From Methylobacter marinus A45 (GTDB lineage Bacteria > Pseudomonadota > Gammaproteobacteria > Methylococcales > Methylomonadaceae): a stretch of DNA of 64,000 nucleotides. The stretch spans positions 1,336,616-1,400,615 of the forward strand of contig NZ_KB912877.1 in assembly GCF_000383855.1 (NCBI RefSeq). Reading direction: 5' to 3'. This document shows positions 46,238-54,358 of this stretch, one piece after another. Below the pieces are notes generated by a model, which was not told the origin of the DNA, ran no database searches, and was given only the letters and a program-made list of their open reading frames with translations. A program made the position numbers and the translations under genes. The stretch's first letter is position 1. Every line of letters begins with the position of its first letter.

Positions 46238-46293
46238 TTGTCATAAAACCGTAACGCAATCATCATCTTTTTGTCATAGAAGGCTCTTATACT
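46238..46293 (+). promoter_or_regulatory. Candidate double Pho box and -10 before chemoreceptor gene
   Basis: Four 7-bp units start at exact 11-bp steps: TTGTCAT (46238), CCGTAAC (46249), TCATCAT (46260) and TTGTCAT (46271). After the last unit come exactly 10 bp and TATACT (46288-46293). PhoB is known to bind CTGTCAT units at 11-bp steps, with the Pho box ending about 10 bp before the -10 and no true -35. The outer units match the PhoB unit at 6 of 7 bases, the inner two at 4 of 7. An identical layout occurs before the PAP2 gene. Confidence 0.65.
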
Positions 46294-46492: not shown

Positions 46493-48700
46493 ATGCTAAA
46501 CAACGCCCGCATAGGCACACGCCTGATTTGGCTGGTCAGCCTTTTTCTGATCCTGACATCCGCTATTGCCCTGAAAGGCTTGCACGGCATGGCGCGGAAT
46601 GTCGCGATCGTGAACAGCCTCTACAACGACCGCATAGTGCCGCTGCGTGACCTGAAAGTCATCGCCGATCTGTATGCGATCAATATCCTGGAAACGACGC
46701 GCAAGGCCAGCAAGGGCGCCATATCCTTGCCGGAAGCCAGCCAGGCTGTGCGCGACGCCGAACAAATCATTGCCGAGAAATGGCAAGCCTATCTAAGCAC
46801 GCGGCATGTGGCCGAAGAAGAACGACTGATAAACGAACTCAAACCGATACTGGCCAAAAATCAGCAGGAAATGGACAGGCTCAAGGCTACCCTGGATACC
46901 GGCGACAGGGATGCCGTACCCGGCTTTCTCAACTATCGCCTGCTGCCGAGCATCAATCCCGTTACCGAAAAATATGCCGAATTGATCGAGGCACAGCTGG
47001 ATGCGGCAAAAATCACTTACGACAGCATGGTGCGGAATTACCAAAACATGCGTAACTGGTTCATAGCCATTGTTCTGTTTGGCCTGCTGGCCACAAGCCT
47101 GCTGGCGTTCATTATTATCCGCGGCATCACTCGCAGCACCGCGCAAATGACCGCCGCCCTGCAACATGCGCTGTTTGGCGATTTCACGAGCCGCGCGCAG
47201 GCTCAGGGGCGGGATGAGATCAGTCAGGCCATCGGCCTGCTGAACAGTTTTCTGGATCAGTTGCATAAGACCTTCCTGGAAACGCATCGGGTCGCGCATT
47301 GCTTTGCCGCCGGCCAGTTCGGCCAGCGCATGGCGACCGATTTGCCAGGCGACATTGGCAAGCTGGCGACCGGCTTGAATGCCTCTTTCGCGCAGGCCGA
47401 ACAGTCCGTTCAAACCTTGTCGCAAGTCGTGCAAGCCATGAAGGCAGGCAAATCGCTGGACCTGCAGACCATACGGCCCCATACACTCCAGGGCGAATGG
47501 CAGCGGGCGGTCGAGCAGGCAACCGACGCCATGCGGACACTGCAGCACATGTTCGCCCAAATCAACGAGGTGCTTCAAGGCGCTTCCGCAGGCCGGTTCG
47601 ACCTGCGAGTAACAACATCGGTATCCGGTATCTATCTGGAATTAAAGGACGCCATCAATGCCGCCATGAGCAATCTCAATGCCGCCATCGATGATGTCAT
47701 GCACTGTACGATGGCATTGTCGGCTGGCGACCTGACCGAACGGGTTACCGGCAACCATCAGGGTGATCTGGAGAAATTGAAGCATGCGTTGAATCATGCG
47801 CTGGCCTCTCTGTCGGCATCATTTCATCAAGTGCAGGAACGCTCCACGGATGTGTCGCTGTCCTCGCAACAAGTGGCCGCGGCCAATCAGGACCTGTCGC
47901 AACGCATTCAGGAACAGGCCTCCGCACTGGAGCAAACCACGGCCGCAATGGAAGAACTGACCGCGCAGGTGCGCGATGCGGCCGACCGCGCTGAACAGTC
48001 GAAAGTCATCACACTCGATGCCCGTGACGAGGTCCAGGCCGGCGCCGAGTCGATGCGGGATGCCATCGCCGCCATGCACACCATTCGTGACGTCAGCAAT
48101 CAAATTACCGGCATTACCGATTTAATCGATGGCATTGCCTTCCAATCCAACCTGCTGGCGTTGAATGCAGCCGTGGAAGCCGCGCGCGCCGGCGAACAAG
48201 GCCGGGCTTTTGCGGTCGTAGCCAGCGAGGTGCGCGCGCTGGCGCAACAATCCGCCGAGGCTGCCACCGATATCAAGCTGTTGATCGATCAAAGCACCCT
48301 AAAAATTCTGGAAGGCACGCACAAAGTCGAACACACCGGTGAAGCCATGATTCGCATCAGCGGGCAAATCGGACAGGTGGGGACCCTGGTGGAAGAGATT
48401 GCGTCAAACGCCGGTGAGCAAGCCCAGGGCATCGAGGAATCATCCAGGGCGATCATGGAAATAGACCGCACCCTGCAGCAAAACGCGGCGCTGGTCGAGG
48501 AAAACGCGGCGCTGGCCGACCAACTCGGGCAAATAGCCGGTACGCTGGATTATTTGACCGGCCAGTTTCGGCTTCAGGACTACGAACCGGAGCCGATACG
48601 TCTCAGCCTCATCTCCCCTAATCATGACACCTCCCGGGAACCGTTAGCGACCGATGAGGAGCAATGGAGTGAATTCCGCGCCGCGCACGGGACTAAGTAA
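46493..48700 (+). CDS. Methyl-accepting chemotaxis protein
   Basis: Transmembrane chemoreceptor of 735 residues. Order of parts: membrane helix 1 (about 11-29), a helical periplasmic domain of the 4HB type (about 30-185), membrane helix 2 (about 188-208), a series of HAMP-like segments (about 209-262 and further repeats to about 430; GDFTSRA, GRFDLRV and GDLTERV mark three of them), then the methylation helices and the signalling tip near 545-600 (DGIAFQSNLLALNAAVEAA). The very long HAMP array is notable. No PAS or Cache domain and no CheB-tethering pentapeptide is seen at the C-terminus. It stands alone without che genes. The promoter before it looks PhoB-dependent, so a role in phosphate-linked taxis is possible, but the ligand cannot be read from sequence. 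Confidence 0.95.
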   Translation: MLNNARIGTRLIWLVSLFLILTSAIALKGLHGMARNVAIVNSLYNDRIVPLRDLKVIADLYAINILETTRKASKGAISLPEASQAVRDAEQIIAEKWQAYLSTRHVAEEERLINELKPILAKNQQEMDRLKATLDTGDRDAVPGFLNYRLLPSINPVTEKYAELIEAQLDAAKITYDSMVRNYQNMRNWFIAIVLFGLLATSLLAFIIIRGITRSTAQMTAALQHALFGDFTSRAQAQGRDEISQAIGLLNSFLDQLHKTFLETHRVAHCFAAGQFGQRMATDLPGDIGKLATGLNASFAQAEQSVQTLSQVVQAMKAGKSLDLQTIRPHTLQGEWQRAVEQATDAMRTLQHMFAQINEVLQGASAGRFDLRVTTSVSGIYLELKDAINAAMSNLNAAIDDVMHCTMALSAGDLTERVTGNHQGDLEKLKHALNHALASLSASFHQVQERSTDVSLSSQQVAAANQDLSQRIQEQASALEQTTAAMEELTAQVRDAADRAEQSKVITLDARDEVQAGAESMRDAIAAMHTIRDVSNQITGITDLIDGIAFQSNLLALNAAVEAARAGEQGRAFAVVASEVRALAQQSAEAATDIKLLIDQSTLKILEGTHKVEHTGEAMIRISGQIGQVGTLVEEIASNAGEQAQGIEESSRAIMEIDRTLQQNAALVEENAALADQLGQIAGTLDYLTGQFRLQDYEPEPIRLSLISPNHDTSREPLATDEEQWSEFRAAHGTK

Positions 48701-51371: not shown

Positions 51372-52166
51372 ATGTCTTATATTTTAAATGCACTGCGCAA
51401 ATCAGAACAGGACCGGCAGGCCGTCGAGCCTGACAAGGTCACCAACAGGATTCTCGCTCAGCAGCCGCGGCAGCCCCAACGCGCTACCCGGCTTATTGCC
51501 GCATTGATTATCAGCAACCTGCTTATCCTGGCTTATTTTCTCTGGTTTACCCAAAAGCCCCAGCCCGACGCTCCGACGCCAGCCGGCAAGCAGCCCGACG
51601 CGTCTGCCGTTAAGCCGTCGTTAGCGCCGCCGGTTGACATAAGGCCGCCGCCTGAGCCCGAGGCAAGACCGCCGGAACCGAAACTCCCGTCCATTGCCGA
51701 AATCGTCGAAGCCCGGGTTATACCGGCCAAAACCGCAACTGCCATTAAAAAACCGCTGACAGAGCCCGTTAAACCGGCGCCCGCGCCGCCGCAGCCGGTT
51801 CGCCTAAAAGCCGGACCGGTTGAAGCCTCTGGACCGGCTGATAACGCGGTTGACAAACCGGCATCATTGCCTGGCAAAAAAACCGGGCCGGTCATGACCG
51901 CTCTCGAGCAACCGGCCTCATTGCCGGCAAAAAATCACCTGCCTTTCCTCAATGAACTGCCTGCCGAATTCCGCCGCGAATTGCCAAGCTTGCCTATCAA
52001 TGTCTTTGTATATTCGCCGAAGCCTGCCGAACGTTTTGTCATGATCGACATGGTTAAATATACGCCCGGCCAGCGAATCAAGGACCTGCTGGAGCTCAAG
52101 GAAATACGGTCCGACAGCCTCATCGTCAGCTACAACGATCGCCTGTTCAAAATCAAGCGTCCGTAA
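51372..52166 (+). CDS. GspB/ExeB-type secretion assembly protein
   Basis: Partner of the preceding ATPase. The 264-residue protein starts MSYILNALRKSEQDRQ, the family's N-terminal signature, then a membrane helix at about 41-59, a long proline- and alanine-rich periplasmic linker (about 62-200), and a C-terminal GspB domain (LPAEFRRELPSLPINVFVYS ... MIDMVKYTPGQRI). In Aeromonas, ExeAB builds the secretin ring; here the partner secretin must lie elsewhere. Co-transcribed with the upstream gene. Confidence 0.85.
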   Translation: MSYILNALRKSEQDRQAVEPDKVTNRILAQQPRQPQRATRLIAALIISNLLILAYFLWFTQKPQPDAPTPAGKQPDASAVKPSLAPPVDIRPPPEPEARPPEPKLPSIAEIVEARVIPAKTATAIKKPLTEPVKPAPAPPQPVRLKAGPVEASGPADNAVDKPASLPGKKTGPVMTALEQPASLPAKNHLPFLNELPAEFRRELPSLPINVFVYSPKPAERFVMIDMVKYTPGQRIKDLLELKEIRSDSLIVSYNDRLFKIKRP

Positions 52167-52293: not shown

Positions 52294-52349
52294 TTGTCAT
52301 CAAACTTTCAACAAACCTTCATTTCCTTGTCACAAAAGAGTTTTAGTCT
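52294..52349 (+). promoter_or_regulatory. Candidate double Pho box and -10 before the PAP2-glycosyltransferase unit
   Basis: Four 7-bp units start at exact 11-bp steps: TTGTCAT (52294), CTTTCAA (52305), CCTTCAT (52316) and TTGTCAC (52327), then 10 bp and TAGTCT (52344-52349). Units match the PhoB CTGTCAT unit at 6, 5, 5 and 5 of 7 bases. Spacing between the first and last TTGTCA (33 bp) and from the last TTGTCA to the -10 (17 bp between first bases) is identical to the site before the chemoreceptor gene. Predicted start of transcription is near 52356. Confidence 0.7.
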
Positions 52350-52450
52350 TTGCCATGAAGGCTGGGATTAAATCAATAGGAAAATCCACGTTTTTCAGCT
52401 CTGCACCCGATCGCGGCCGACTTTTGCAAAACTGCCGAGAGGACCAAAAA

Positions 52451-52972
52451 ATGAAACTGCTTTATTCGATACATAAGTACGATGTGTTCATGACCATCTG
52501 GCTGCTTAATGTCAAAATGCACGGCTCACTGGCCAAGTTTAGCCGATACGTGTCAAGAACCGGCGACGGCCAGCTGTATCTGTTGATCATCGGTCTGCTG
52601 TACTGGCAGCAAGGCCTTCACAGTCCGCTGCTGCAGGCTATTTTGCTGGGCTTTCTGGTCGAAAGGCCGATTTACTTCGTTTTGAAAAACAGCCTGAAAC
52701 GCAACCGGCCGGCGGCGGCGCTGCAAAATTTCCGCAGCGTTATCACACCCTCCGATCAATTCAGCTTCCCATCCGGCCATACTTCCGCGGCGTTCATGAT
52801 GGCGACGCTGATCGGTTATTTCTTTCCTGTTTTAATGCTTCCGCTTTATGGCTGGGCGGCGATGATCGGCTTCTCGCGCGTCGTGCTGGGCGTGCATTTT
52901 CCGACCGATATCTTAGTCGGCGTCATACTGGGCATCAGTACGGCACTTTTCAGTTTGGGATACAGTATTTAA
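52451..52972 (+). CDS. PAP2-family membrane phosphatase
   Basis: Type 2 phosphatidic acid phosphatase-like protein; relatives dephosphorylate phosphatidate, undecaprenyl diphosphate or related lipids at the membrane. Start ATG 52451 (MKLLYSIHKY) follows GAGAGGA and gives 173 residues; an upstream in-frame ATG at 52355 coincides with the predicted transcription start and is rejected. All three catalytic motifs are intact: KNSLKRNRP (KX6RP), PSGH, and SRVVLGVHFPTD (SRX5HX3D), among about five or six membrane helices. Its stop shares a base with the glycosyltransferase ATG (TAATG). The Pho-type promoter suggests induction by phosphate shortage. Confidence 0.93.
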   Translation: MKLLYSIHKYDVFMTIWLLNVKMHGSLAKFSRYVSRTGDGQLYLLIIGLLYWQQGLHSPLLQAILLGFLVERPIYFVLKNSLKRNRPAAALQNFRSVITPSDQFSFPSGHTSAAFMMATLIGYFFPVLMLPLYGWAAMIGFSRVVLGVHFPTDILVGVILGISTALFSLGYSI

Positions 52973-54015
52973 TGAGAATTTTTTATGGCGTACAGGGCAC
53001 CGGTAACGGCCACATCACTCGCGCGCGCGTCATGGCGAAAGAACTCCATGATGCCGGCCTGGACGTTACCTTTCAGTTTACCGGCCGCCCGGTCGATAAA
53101 TATTTCGATATGGAGGTCTTTAACGGCTACCAGTTACGCACCGGCCTGACTTTCAGCACCGACAAAGGCCAGGTCAGCTACCTGAAGACCGCTTTGGATG
53201 CCAGACCGCTTACCTTCATCAAAGATGTCGCGTCGCTGGATTTAAGCCCTTACGATCTGGTCATCAGCGATTTTGAACCCGTGACGGCCTGGGCGGCAAA
53301 GAAACAGAAAAAAACCGTTTTGGGCATCGGCCATCAATACGCGTTCAACCATCGCATCCCCAAGGCCGGCTCGGACCCGGTCGCCAGACGGGTCATGAAA
53401 TACTTCGCGCCGGCCGATATCGGCATCGGCCTGCACTGGCACCATTTCGACCAGCCGATTCTGCCGCCCATTATCGACACGAGCAAAACCGCCGCGAATA
53501 CCATCAAAAATAAAATTATCGTTTACCTGCCTTTCGAGGATCAGCGAGAAGTCATCAGGCTGTTATCGCCTTTCAACAACTTCAGCTTCCACGTCTATGC
53601 GCCGGAAACGGTACGCTCCGAGTTCGAACATATCCTCTGCCATCCGCTCTCCCGCGAAGGTTTTCAGAAGAACTTATACGACTGCGCCGGCATTATCAGC
53701 AATGCCGGTTTTGAACTTGCCAGCGAATCGCTGCAACTGGGCAAAAAGATCCTGGCCAAACCCCTGCATGCCCAAATGGAACAAATCTCCAATGCCGCCG
53801 CCTTACAGCAACTGGGTTATGGCCATGTCATGACGGATATGGACCCGGCGGTGATCGAATGCTGGCTGCATGACGAACATGCCGTCCGGGTCACTTATCC
53901 CAATACCGCCAGGTTATTGGTTCAATGGCTTCAGGACGGCATGCCGGAAATGGACAGGAATTTCGTCCACGCCATATGGAGCAGCGTGGAAGTCTCTCAG
54001 ACCCATTTGGAGTGA
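52972..54015 (+). CDS. GT-B glycosyltransferase, MJ1255/VC2487 type
   Basis: MurG/MGDG-synthase-like transferase of 347 residues. The N-terminal glycine loop FYGVQGTGNGHITRARVMAKEL binds the acceptor side in relatives; the C-terminal nucleotide-sugar site is visible as ISNAGFELASESLQLGKKIL followed by PLHAQMEQISNA. No membrane helix, so it should act at the inner face of the membrane. The substrate is unknown. Translational coupling to the PAP2 phosphatase and the shared Pho-type promoter suggest that it glycosylates the lipid the phosphatase produces (for example diacylglycerol); this is inference. Confidence 0.85.
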   Translation: MRIFYGVQGTGNGHITRARVMAKELHDAGLDVTFQFTGRPVDKYFDMEVFNGYQLRTGLTFSTDKGQVSYLKTALDARPLTFIKDVASLDLSPYDLVISDFEPVTAWAAKKQKKTVLGIGHQYAFNHRIPKAGSDPVARRVMKYFAPADIGIGLHWHHFDQPILPPIIDTSKTAANTIKNKIIVYLPFEDQREVIRLLSPFNNFSFHVYAPETVRSEFEHILCHPLSREGFQKNLYDCAGIISNAGFELASESLQLGKKILAKPLHAQMEQISNAAALQQLGYGHVMTDMDPAVIECWLHDEHAVRVTYPNTARLLVQWLQDGMPEMDRNFVHAIWSSVEVSQTHLE

Positions 54016-54040: not shown

Positions 54041-54358
54041 TTATTTGACAATCAGGCTGTTATTGACCATTTTGACGCCTCCCACGGTTCTCGCCAGTTC
54101 GACAGCCTTATCGGCGGCACTGGCGGAATCGACGAAACCGCTCAGCTGTACAATCCCCTTGAACGTTTTCACGTTAATCTGCAGTACTTTAAGGCCCGGA
54201 TCATTAAATATGGCCGTCTTCACCTTGGTTGTCAGCACGGCATCATCAAGATACTCGCCGGTGCTTTCATGCCTTTTACTTCCCGCACAGGCGACCAACG
54301 ACATCGCCAGTAATACAACTGATAAAAAACGTATTATCAAACTGAATTTATTCATCAT
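54041..54358 (-). CDS. BON-domain lipoprotein (OsmY-like)
   Basis: Small 105-residue lipoprotein: signal peptide with lipobox LVAC (Cys24), then one BON domain (DDAVLTTKVKTAIFND to GGVKMVNNSLIVK). BON domains bind phospholipids in known cases. It is convergent with the glycosyltransferase gene. A minus-strand TATAAT (54406-54401) lies about 45 bp upstream without a good -35. Confidence 0.85.
   Translation of the reverse strand: MMNKFSLIIRFLSVVLLAMSLVACAGSKRHESTGEYLDDAVLTTKVKTAIFNDPGLKVLQINVKTFKGIVQLSGFVDSASAADKAVELARTVGGVKMVNNSLIVK

Follow-up and report, generated by a model that had tools for sequence, protein, structure and literature searches.

The 64,000-nucleotide window analysed here, taken from the 4.99 Mb genome of Methylobacter marinus A45 (C1:1336616-1400615), contains a gene for a PAP2-type membrane lipid phosphatase that shares one base with a gene for a glycosyltransferase of the MJ1255/VC2487 family, hereafter called GT. 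We propose with moderate confidence that the 2 genes form a Pho-regulon operon for membrane lipid remodelling, which would act together with PlcP. Judged by its promoter, the pair is almost certainly under Pho control, a prediction for which sequence evidence could hardly be stronger.

To score promoters, a CTGTCAT-like Pho unit was placed at 11-bp steps, giving a maximum of 28 for 4 units and 14 for 2 units. The four-unit threshold of 18 corresponds to the 99th percentile of controls and was reached by 1.35% of 8666 control windows, and the two-unit threshold of 12 was reached by 0.32% of controls. The array in front of the PAP2 gene scored 22/28, the highest value at any position and on either strand of the window; 0.025 such scores are expected per 64 kb, and a single position in 40 simulated windows got there. 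The first-pass annotation had described four 11-bp-phased units ending 10 bp before a -10 element, a PAP2 phosphatase with its catalytic motifs and a one-base overlap with a glycosyltransferase, all of which were recovered in the sequence. It had also made its proposal depend on the presence of PhoB, and the genome encodes both PhoB (337.9 bits; cut-off 296.2) and PhoR (407.7 bits; cut-off 334.2).

The array is conserved in 2 sets of relatives, which may overlap: the contig loci, which are the best 80 of 105 GT loci, and 61 genomes numbered G, consisting of M. marinus and 60 relatives. In the contig set, 42 loci with a PAP2-GT pair were picked by a motif rule (tblastn finds PAP2 in 43 of the 80, L070 being one that escaped the rule), and 37 of these 42 scored at least 18, the misses being L061, L065, L072, L077, and L084. 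The 61 genomes, M. marinus included, contain 34 PAP2-GT loci, of which 33 reached the same threshold, and the remaining locus, L121, scored 17. GT loci without PAP2 reached it in 3 of 7 cases in the 61 genomes, and an array stood directly before GT in 30 of the 38 contig loci for which PAP2 was not called; of these 38, 25 belong to the Nitrosomonas clade. L023 and L029, in which about 170 bp separate the end of plcP from GT, had no array before GT.

As a positive control for this unit we used pstS, with the promoter strand set by tblastn, and 24 of 31 rows (30 loci, with M. marinus counted twice) had a two-unit score of at least 12. For plcP promoters, the four-unit threshold was reached in 22 of 31 rows, one of which is a duplicate, and the two-unit threshold in just 8. 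A genome-wide scan for PhoB sites had been suggested as a check in the first-pass annotation. A two-unit IUPAC pattern had 129+139 matches against 129+118 for the control, which is hardly above background, and we claim no regulon list from it. Arrays were present before the M. marinus genes pstS (2 units, 12/14), olsB (21/28), and plcP.

The GT protein matched the TIGR00661 (MJ1255/VC2487) model with 229.7 bits, above the curated cut-off of 195.9, and all 48 members of the family alignment match the model. Its sole Pfam match at E 0.001 was PF13528 (112.5 bits), and its predicted structure had a predicted local distance difference test (pLDDT) score of 92.6. The nearest named relative in the tree, among the best 80 of 105 loci, was the protein of Methylobacter luteus, with 85% identity. 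A reading of GT as MurG or monogalactosyldiacylglycerol (MGDG) synthase, to which it had first been likened, was abandoned: PF06925 (MGDG_synth) was not among the matches of GT, and a genome search with that model found one site, C1:4891741, which encodes a separate UgtP-like glycosyltransferase whose promoter stayed below the array thresholds (16/28). GT is likely to make a glycoglycerolipid, and its genomic setting gives good support to a predicted role in remodelling of the PlcP type.

A search for PlcP and Agt homologues, also put forward in the first-pass annotation, identified a PlcP gene in M. marinus at C1:1682192-1682986 (E 4.6e-154), the product of which is 80% identical to PlcP of the Methylobacter locus L052. 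There were no matches to Agt at E 1e-40 in this genome (G000) and none to BtaA. The plcP gene is clustered with genes whose best matches are OlsB (155.9 bits; cut-off 320) and OlsA (126.7 bits; cut-off 300), both below the cut-offs.

For the comparison across the 61 genomes, proteins with more than 200 bits to the L052 protein were counted as PlcP-like and divided into a close type (at least 280 bits) and a diverged type (218 to 260 bits, 41% to 49% identity). PlcP-like proteins were present in 41 genomes, TIGR00661 members over the cut-off in 40, Agt in 22, and UgtP-like glycosyltransferases in 10. The Agt proteins, all in relatives (22/60), showed 52% to 100% identity, and the count excludes G046 (43% identity, 157.8 bits). 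BtaA was over its cut-off in none of the 61 genomes, with one sub-cut-off match containing stops in G001, and betaine lipids therefore do not explain PlcP and were rejected as a use of its product.

GT was present in 38 of the 41 genomes with a PlcP-like protein and in 2 of the 20 without one (38 both, 3 PlcP only, 2 GT only, 18 neither), an association with Fisher P values of 1.7e-10 when genomes are counted and 6e-4 when genera are counted, which are incompletely corrected for descent. The corresponding values were 0.09 for Agt and 0.14, not significant, for UgtP-like proteins. Two of the 3 genomes with PlcP only contained Agt, and in the third, G046, plcP has an Agt-like neighbor. In genera g3, g7, and g34, PlcP and GT were present or absent together, and of the 3 glycosyltransferase families tested (Agt, UgtP-like, and MJ1255-type), GT was the sole one accompanying PlcP in 20 genomes, 11 of which have the close type. 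A PlcP-like gene was located within 5 kb of GT in at least 12 of the 38 genomes, several of them with the order plcP-x-PAP2-GT; this is a lower bound, since contig breaks near GT may hide plcP. The lipid-remodelling context proposed at first is supported by the co-occurrence and proximity of PlcP-like genes, whereas the suggestion of a route distinct from PlcP/Agt is not supported with regard to PlcP, which M. marinus has and which the GT family accompanies rather than replaces. The distinct elements are the glycosyltransferase and the phosphatase that comes with it, both found here in a PlcP-containing genome.

Separately, we observed a UgtP/MGDG-synthase-like gene 1.4 to 2.2 kb from a diverged plcP-like gene (46% to 49% identity) in G001, G002, G006, G012, G018, and G033. 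In G001 and G002, that plcP-like gene is a second one, so that some methanotrophs seem to hold 2 such modules.

We infer the following sequence of events. At low phosphate, PhoR/PhoB would switch on PAP2-GT together with pstS, plcP, and olsBA, and PlcP, encoded elsewhere in the genome, would cleave phospholipids to diacylglycerol. PAP2 would dephosphorylate a lipid phosphate, most simply phosphatidate, to diacylglycerol, and GT would move a sugar from a nucleotide sugar onto diacylglycerol, giving a phosphorus-free glycolipid and standing in for Agt. Such a pathway would have Pho-box control, phospholipid-derived diacylglycerol and a sugar added by a glycosyltransferase in common with the PlcP-Agt system of SAR11, Roseobacter, Pseudomonas, Agrobacterium, and Methylosinus, as outlined in passages of PMC9239053 and PMC4796936, and PlcP itself is present here as well. 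It differs in that GT belongs to MJ1255/VC2487 and not to the GT4 family of Agt, and in that it is paired with PAP2.

Several points weigh against this interpretation, in addition to the incomplete correction for descent. PMC11856585 reports a chromatin immunoprecipitation (ChIP) peak upstream of VC2487 for ChiS, the chitin regulator of Vibrio cholerae, so that the family may have another role in that species. PlcP is named by homology: the L052 query is 56% to 62% identical to genes beside Agt in relatives (L143, L144, L148, and L149), and with the curated models that matched, none of them a PlcP model, the M. marinus protein scored 38.7 bits with LpxH (cut-off 134) and less, again below the cut-off, with other metallophosphoesterases. 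The array before the M. marinus plcP is weaker (19/28), and the UgtP-like glycosyltransferase of this genome could do the glycolipid job instead. Furthermore, 18 of the 41 PlcP genomes contain the diverged type only, and these, all 18 with GT against 2 of the 20 genomes without PlcP, are the source of most of the signal. For the close type alone, the association is weaker, with GT in 20 of 23 genomes against 20 of the 38 others (P = 0.011); excluding the diverged-only genomes leaves GT in 20 of 23 compared with 2 of 20 (P = 3.6e-7). The PlcP-like proteins of Nitrosomonas, 42% to 51% identical to that of M. marinus, also look like the diverged kind. In genus g31, the presence of PlcP follows that of Agt, with no GT, and Agt, GT, and PlcP occur together in 16 genomes, so that Agt and GT are not simple substitutes. 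As to the phosphatase, the solved structure nearest to the window protein is LpxE (6ebu), a lipid A 1-phosphatase. The active site of PAP2 enzymes is usually on the periplasmic side, and since GT is expected to be cytosolic, the diacylglycerol would need flipping.

The PAP2 protein scored 86.6 with the Pfam model (cut-off 27.2), and the 3 catalytic motifs were read in its sequence. It shares fold and motifs with lipid phosphatases of the LpxE and PgpB type, from which it is set apart by its position behind a Pho array and its overlap with GT, and it is 26% to 28% identical to the LpxE structures 6ebu and 5jki. It stayed below every NCBIfam cut-off, and the LpxE model PRK09597, which matched 7 of 33 family members (best E 1.3e-5), was not among the matches of the window protein. 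Its assignment as a putative phosphatidate phosphatase goes no further than plausibility, and the chances that it would supply diacylglycerol to GT appear evenly balanced. The structural neighborhood of LpxE also accommodates a phosphatase of lipid A or of another envelope component (LpxE-like, or acting on undecaprenyl diphosphate) that saves phosphate and leaves glycolipid synthesis to GT alone, which we consider unlikely.

The conservation of the pair, with PAP2 immediately upstream of GT in 34 of the 41 GT loci of the 40 genomes, together with the one-base overlap, would also fit a de novo route in which the 2 enzymes alone convert phosphatidate to diacylglycerol and then to glycolipid without PlcP. 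One genome, G023 (99% complete), has PAP2-GT with an array (L099, 22/28) but neither PlcP (24.4 bits and 26% identity for the best match) nor Agt nor a UgtP-like glycosyltransferase. Within the flanks of the 25 loci L060 to L084, mostly from marine gammaproteobacteria, a PlcP-like gene was seen only in L063 and L076, and most of the PAP2-GT pairs have the array; these flanks extend to 8 kb at most and cannot show genome-wide absence of PlcP. For M. marinus such a route is distinctly unlikely, given that PlcP is encoded in its genome and a PlcP-like protein in 38 of the 40 GT genomes, and that Nitrosomonas combines GT and a PlcP-like gene with no adjoining PAP2.

The acceptor of GT may likewise be something other than diacylglycerol, such as polyprenyl phosphate, ornithine lipid, or an existing monoglycosyl-diacylglycerol, in which case the first glycolipid would come from the UgtP-like enzyme. 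GT has the GT-B fold in common with MurG and natural-product glycosyltransferases, the M. marinus plcP adjoins the olsB- and olsA-like genes, and a UgtP-like gene is present in this genome and near plcP-like genes in the 6 relatives named above. We regard this as rather unlikely in view of the small number of genomes with a UgtP-like protein, its nonsignificant tracking of PlcP, and the 20 genomes in which the MJ1255-type enzyme is the sole tested glycosyltransferase alongside PlcP. UgtP/YpfP and plant MGDG synthase (PF06925, GT28) also have the GT-B fold, and diacylglycerol is a probable acceptor in common with GT.

A glycolipid-forming role for GT together with PlcP also agrees with the Nitrosomonas loci. 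Among the 21 Nitrosomonas-titled contig loci (range L019 to L057), 15 have a PlcP-like gene within 3 kb upstream of GT, 13 have a gene for a patatin-like phospholipase upstream of GT, and 12 have both; PAP2 was absent from the examined stretch of all 21. The Nitrosomonas GT proteins nest inside the methanotroph clade in the tree (support 99/97), which suggests transfer of the gene between methane and ammonia oxidizers.

PMC9239053 reports PlcP in all proteobacterial methanotrophs, no agt beside plcP in type Ia, and, in several members of that type, another "putative DAG glycosyltransferase" that is encoded near plcP and likened to a Bacillus subtilis enzyme (DAG, diacylglycerol). Because of that comparison and the PF06925 gene 1.4 to 2.2 kb from plcP-like genes in 6 relatives, the latter is probably the UgtP-like glycosyltransferase and not the MJ1255-type GT. 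According to PMC4796936, diacylglycerol may arise by dephosphorylation of phosphatidate or be released by phospholipases C, of which PlcP is an example, and putative Pho boxes and several types of glycosyltransferase occur in plcP clusters. In that study, Agt expressed in E. coli gave monoglycosyl-diacylglycerol. A description of the PAP2-GT-Pho pair was not found in the listed titles and the openings of abstracts, which is not a full survey. Term look-ups found no "glycolipid" in the main text of PMC12186959, a paper about V. cholerae short of phosphate, and no word starting with "glyc" in PMC11844350, on methanotroph lipids. We found no described function for TIGR00661: in the literature collection searched, "MJ1255" occurred in no papers and "VC2487" had a single mention, the ChiS peak cited above. 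If the proposed role is true, it would be the first function for TIGR00661, as far as we have found. Type I methanotrophs are of importance as methane sinks, and in type Ia species without agt or the other putative DAG glycosyltransferase, GT is a concrete candidate user of diacylglycerol. A broader claim is possible, but doubtful: that MJ1255/VC2487 is a third, undescribed family of diacylglycerol glycosyltransferases for phosphate-starvation remodelling in methanotrophs, ammonia oxidizers, and marine gammaproteobacteria, and with PAP2 a complete phosphatidate-to-glycolipid module, free of PlcP in some lineages.

Table 1. Features of the PAP2-GT locus (window positions)
Feature	Position	Strand	Basis
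PhoB-type array, four 11-bp units	52294-52304, 52305-52315, 52316-52326, 52327-52337	+	Unit scoring of the window
-10-like hexamer TAGTCT (putative)	52344-52349	+	10 bp past the last TTGTCAC core; read from the sequence
5' leader	52350-52450	+	Ribosome-binding site AGAGGA at 52438-52443
PAP2-type membrane lipid phosphatase gene, 173 aa	52451-52972	+	Pfam score; catalytic residues present
GT-B glycosyltransferase gene (GT), MJ1255/VC2487 family, 347 aa	52972-54015	+	TIGR00661, PF13528

The stop codon of PAP2 overlaps the start codon of GT (Table 1). With a GspB-like gene at 51372-52166 on one side and a convergent BON-domain gene at 54041-54358 on the other, the layout points to an isolated two-gene operon. 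By eye, TA-TCT-like hexamers are found at the same promoter place in Methylobacter relatives. An alternative PAP2 start at 52355 was dropped as being too near the -10 element. A leader block around TCGCGGYCGA (approximately 52385-52435) recurs before PAP2 in several Methylococcaceae (L010, L016, L018, L102, L115, L192, and others). Among 18 folded leader segments, z was below -2 in 7, including L016, L018, and L102, and in some relatives the block lies inside a hairpin with a differing stem sequence; the M. marinus leader formed no stable hairpin (z 0.61). An Rfam search of the leader gave one match, far below the gathering score.

Two further arrays were noted in M. marinus. A second four-unit Pho-type array in the window (46238-46281, + strand; 21/28) is located about 0.2 kb before a gene at 46493-48700 for a methyl-accepting chemotaxis protein with a TarH/4HB sensor, possibly a phosphate-controlled chemoreceptor. 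A strong array elsewhere on C1 (L128:2151, - strand; 22/28, with overlapping two-unit scores of 12 and 13) precedes by about 0.5 kb an open reading frame carrying the motif IIGDGMG, which we take to be alkaline-phosphatase-like. It was also noted that the Aeromonas caviae sequence NZ_AP026896.1 (4.94 Mb), filed among plasmids, looks chromosomal from its size.
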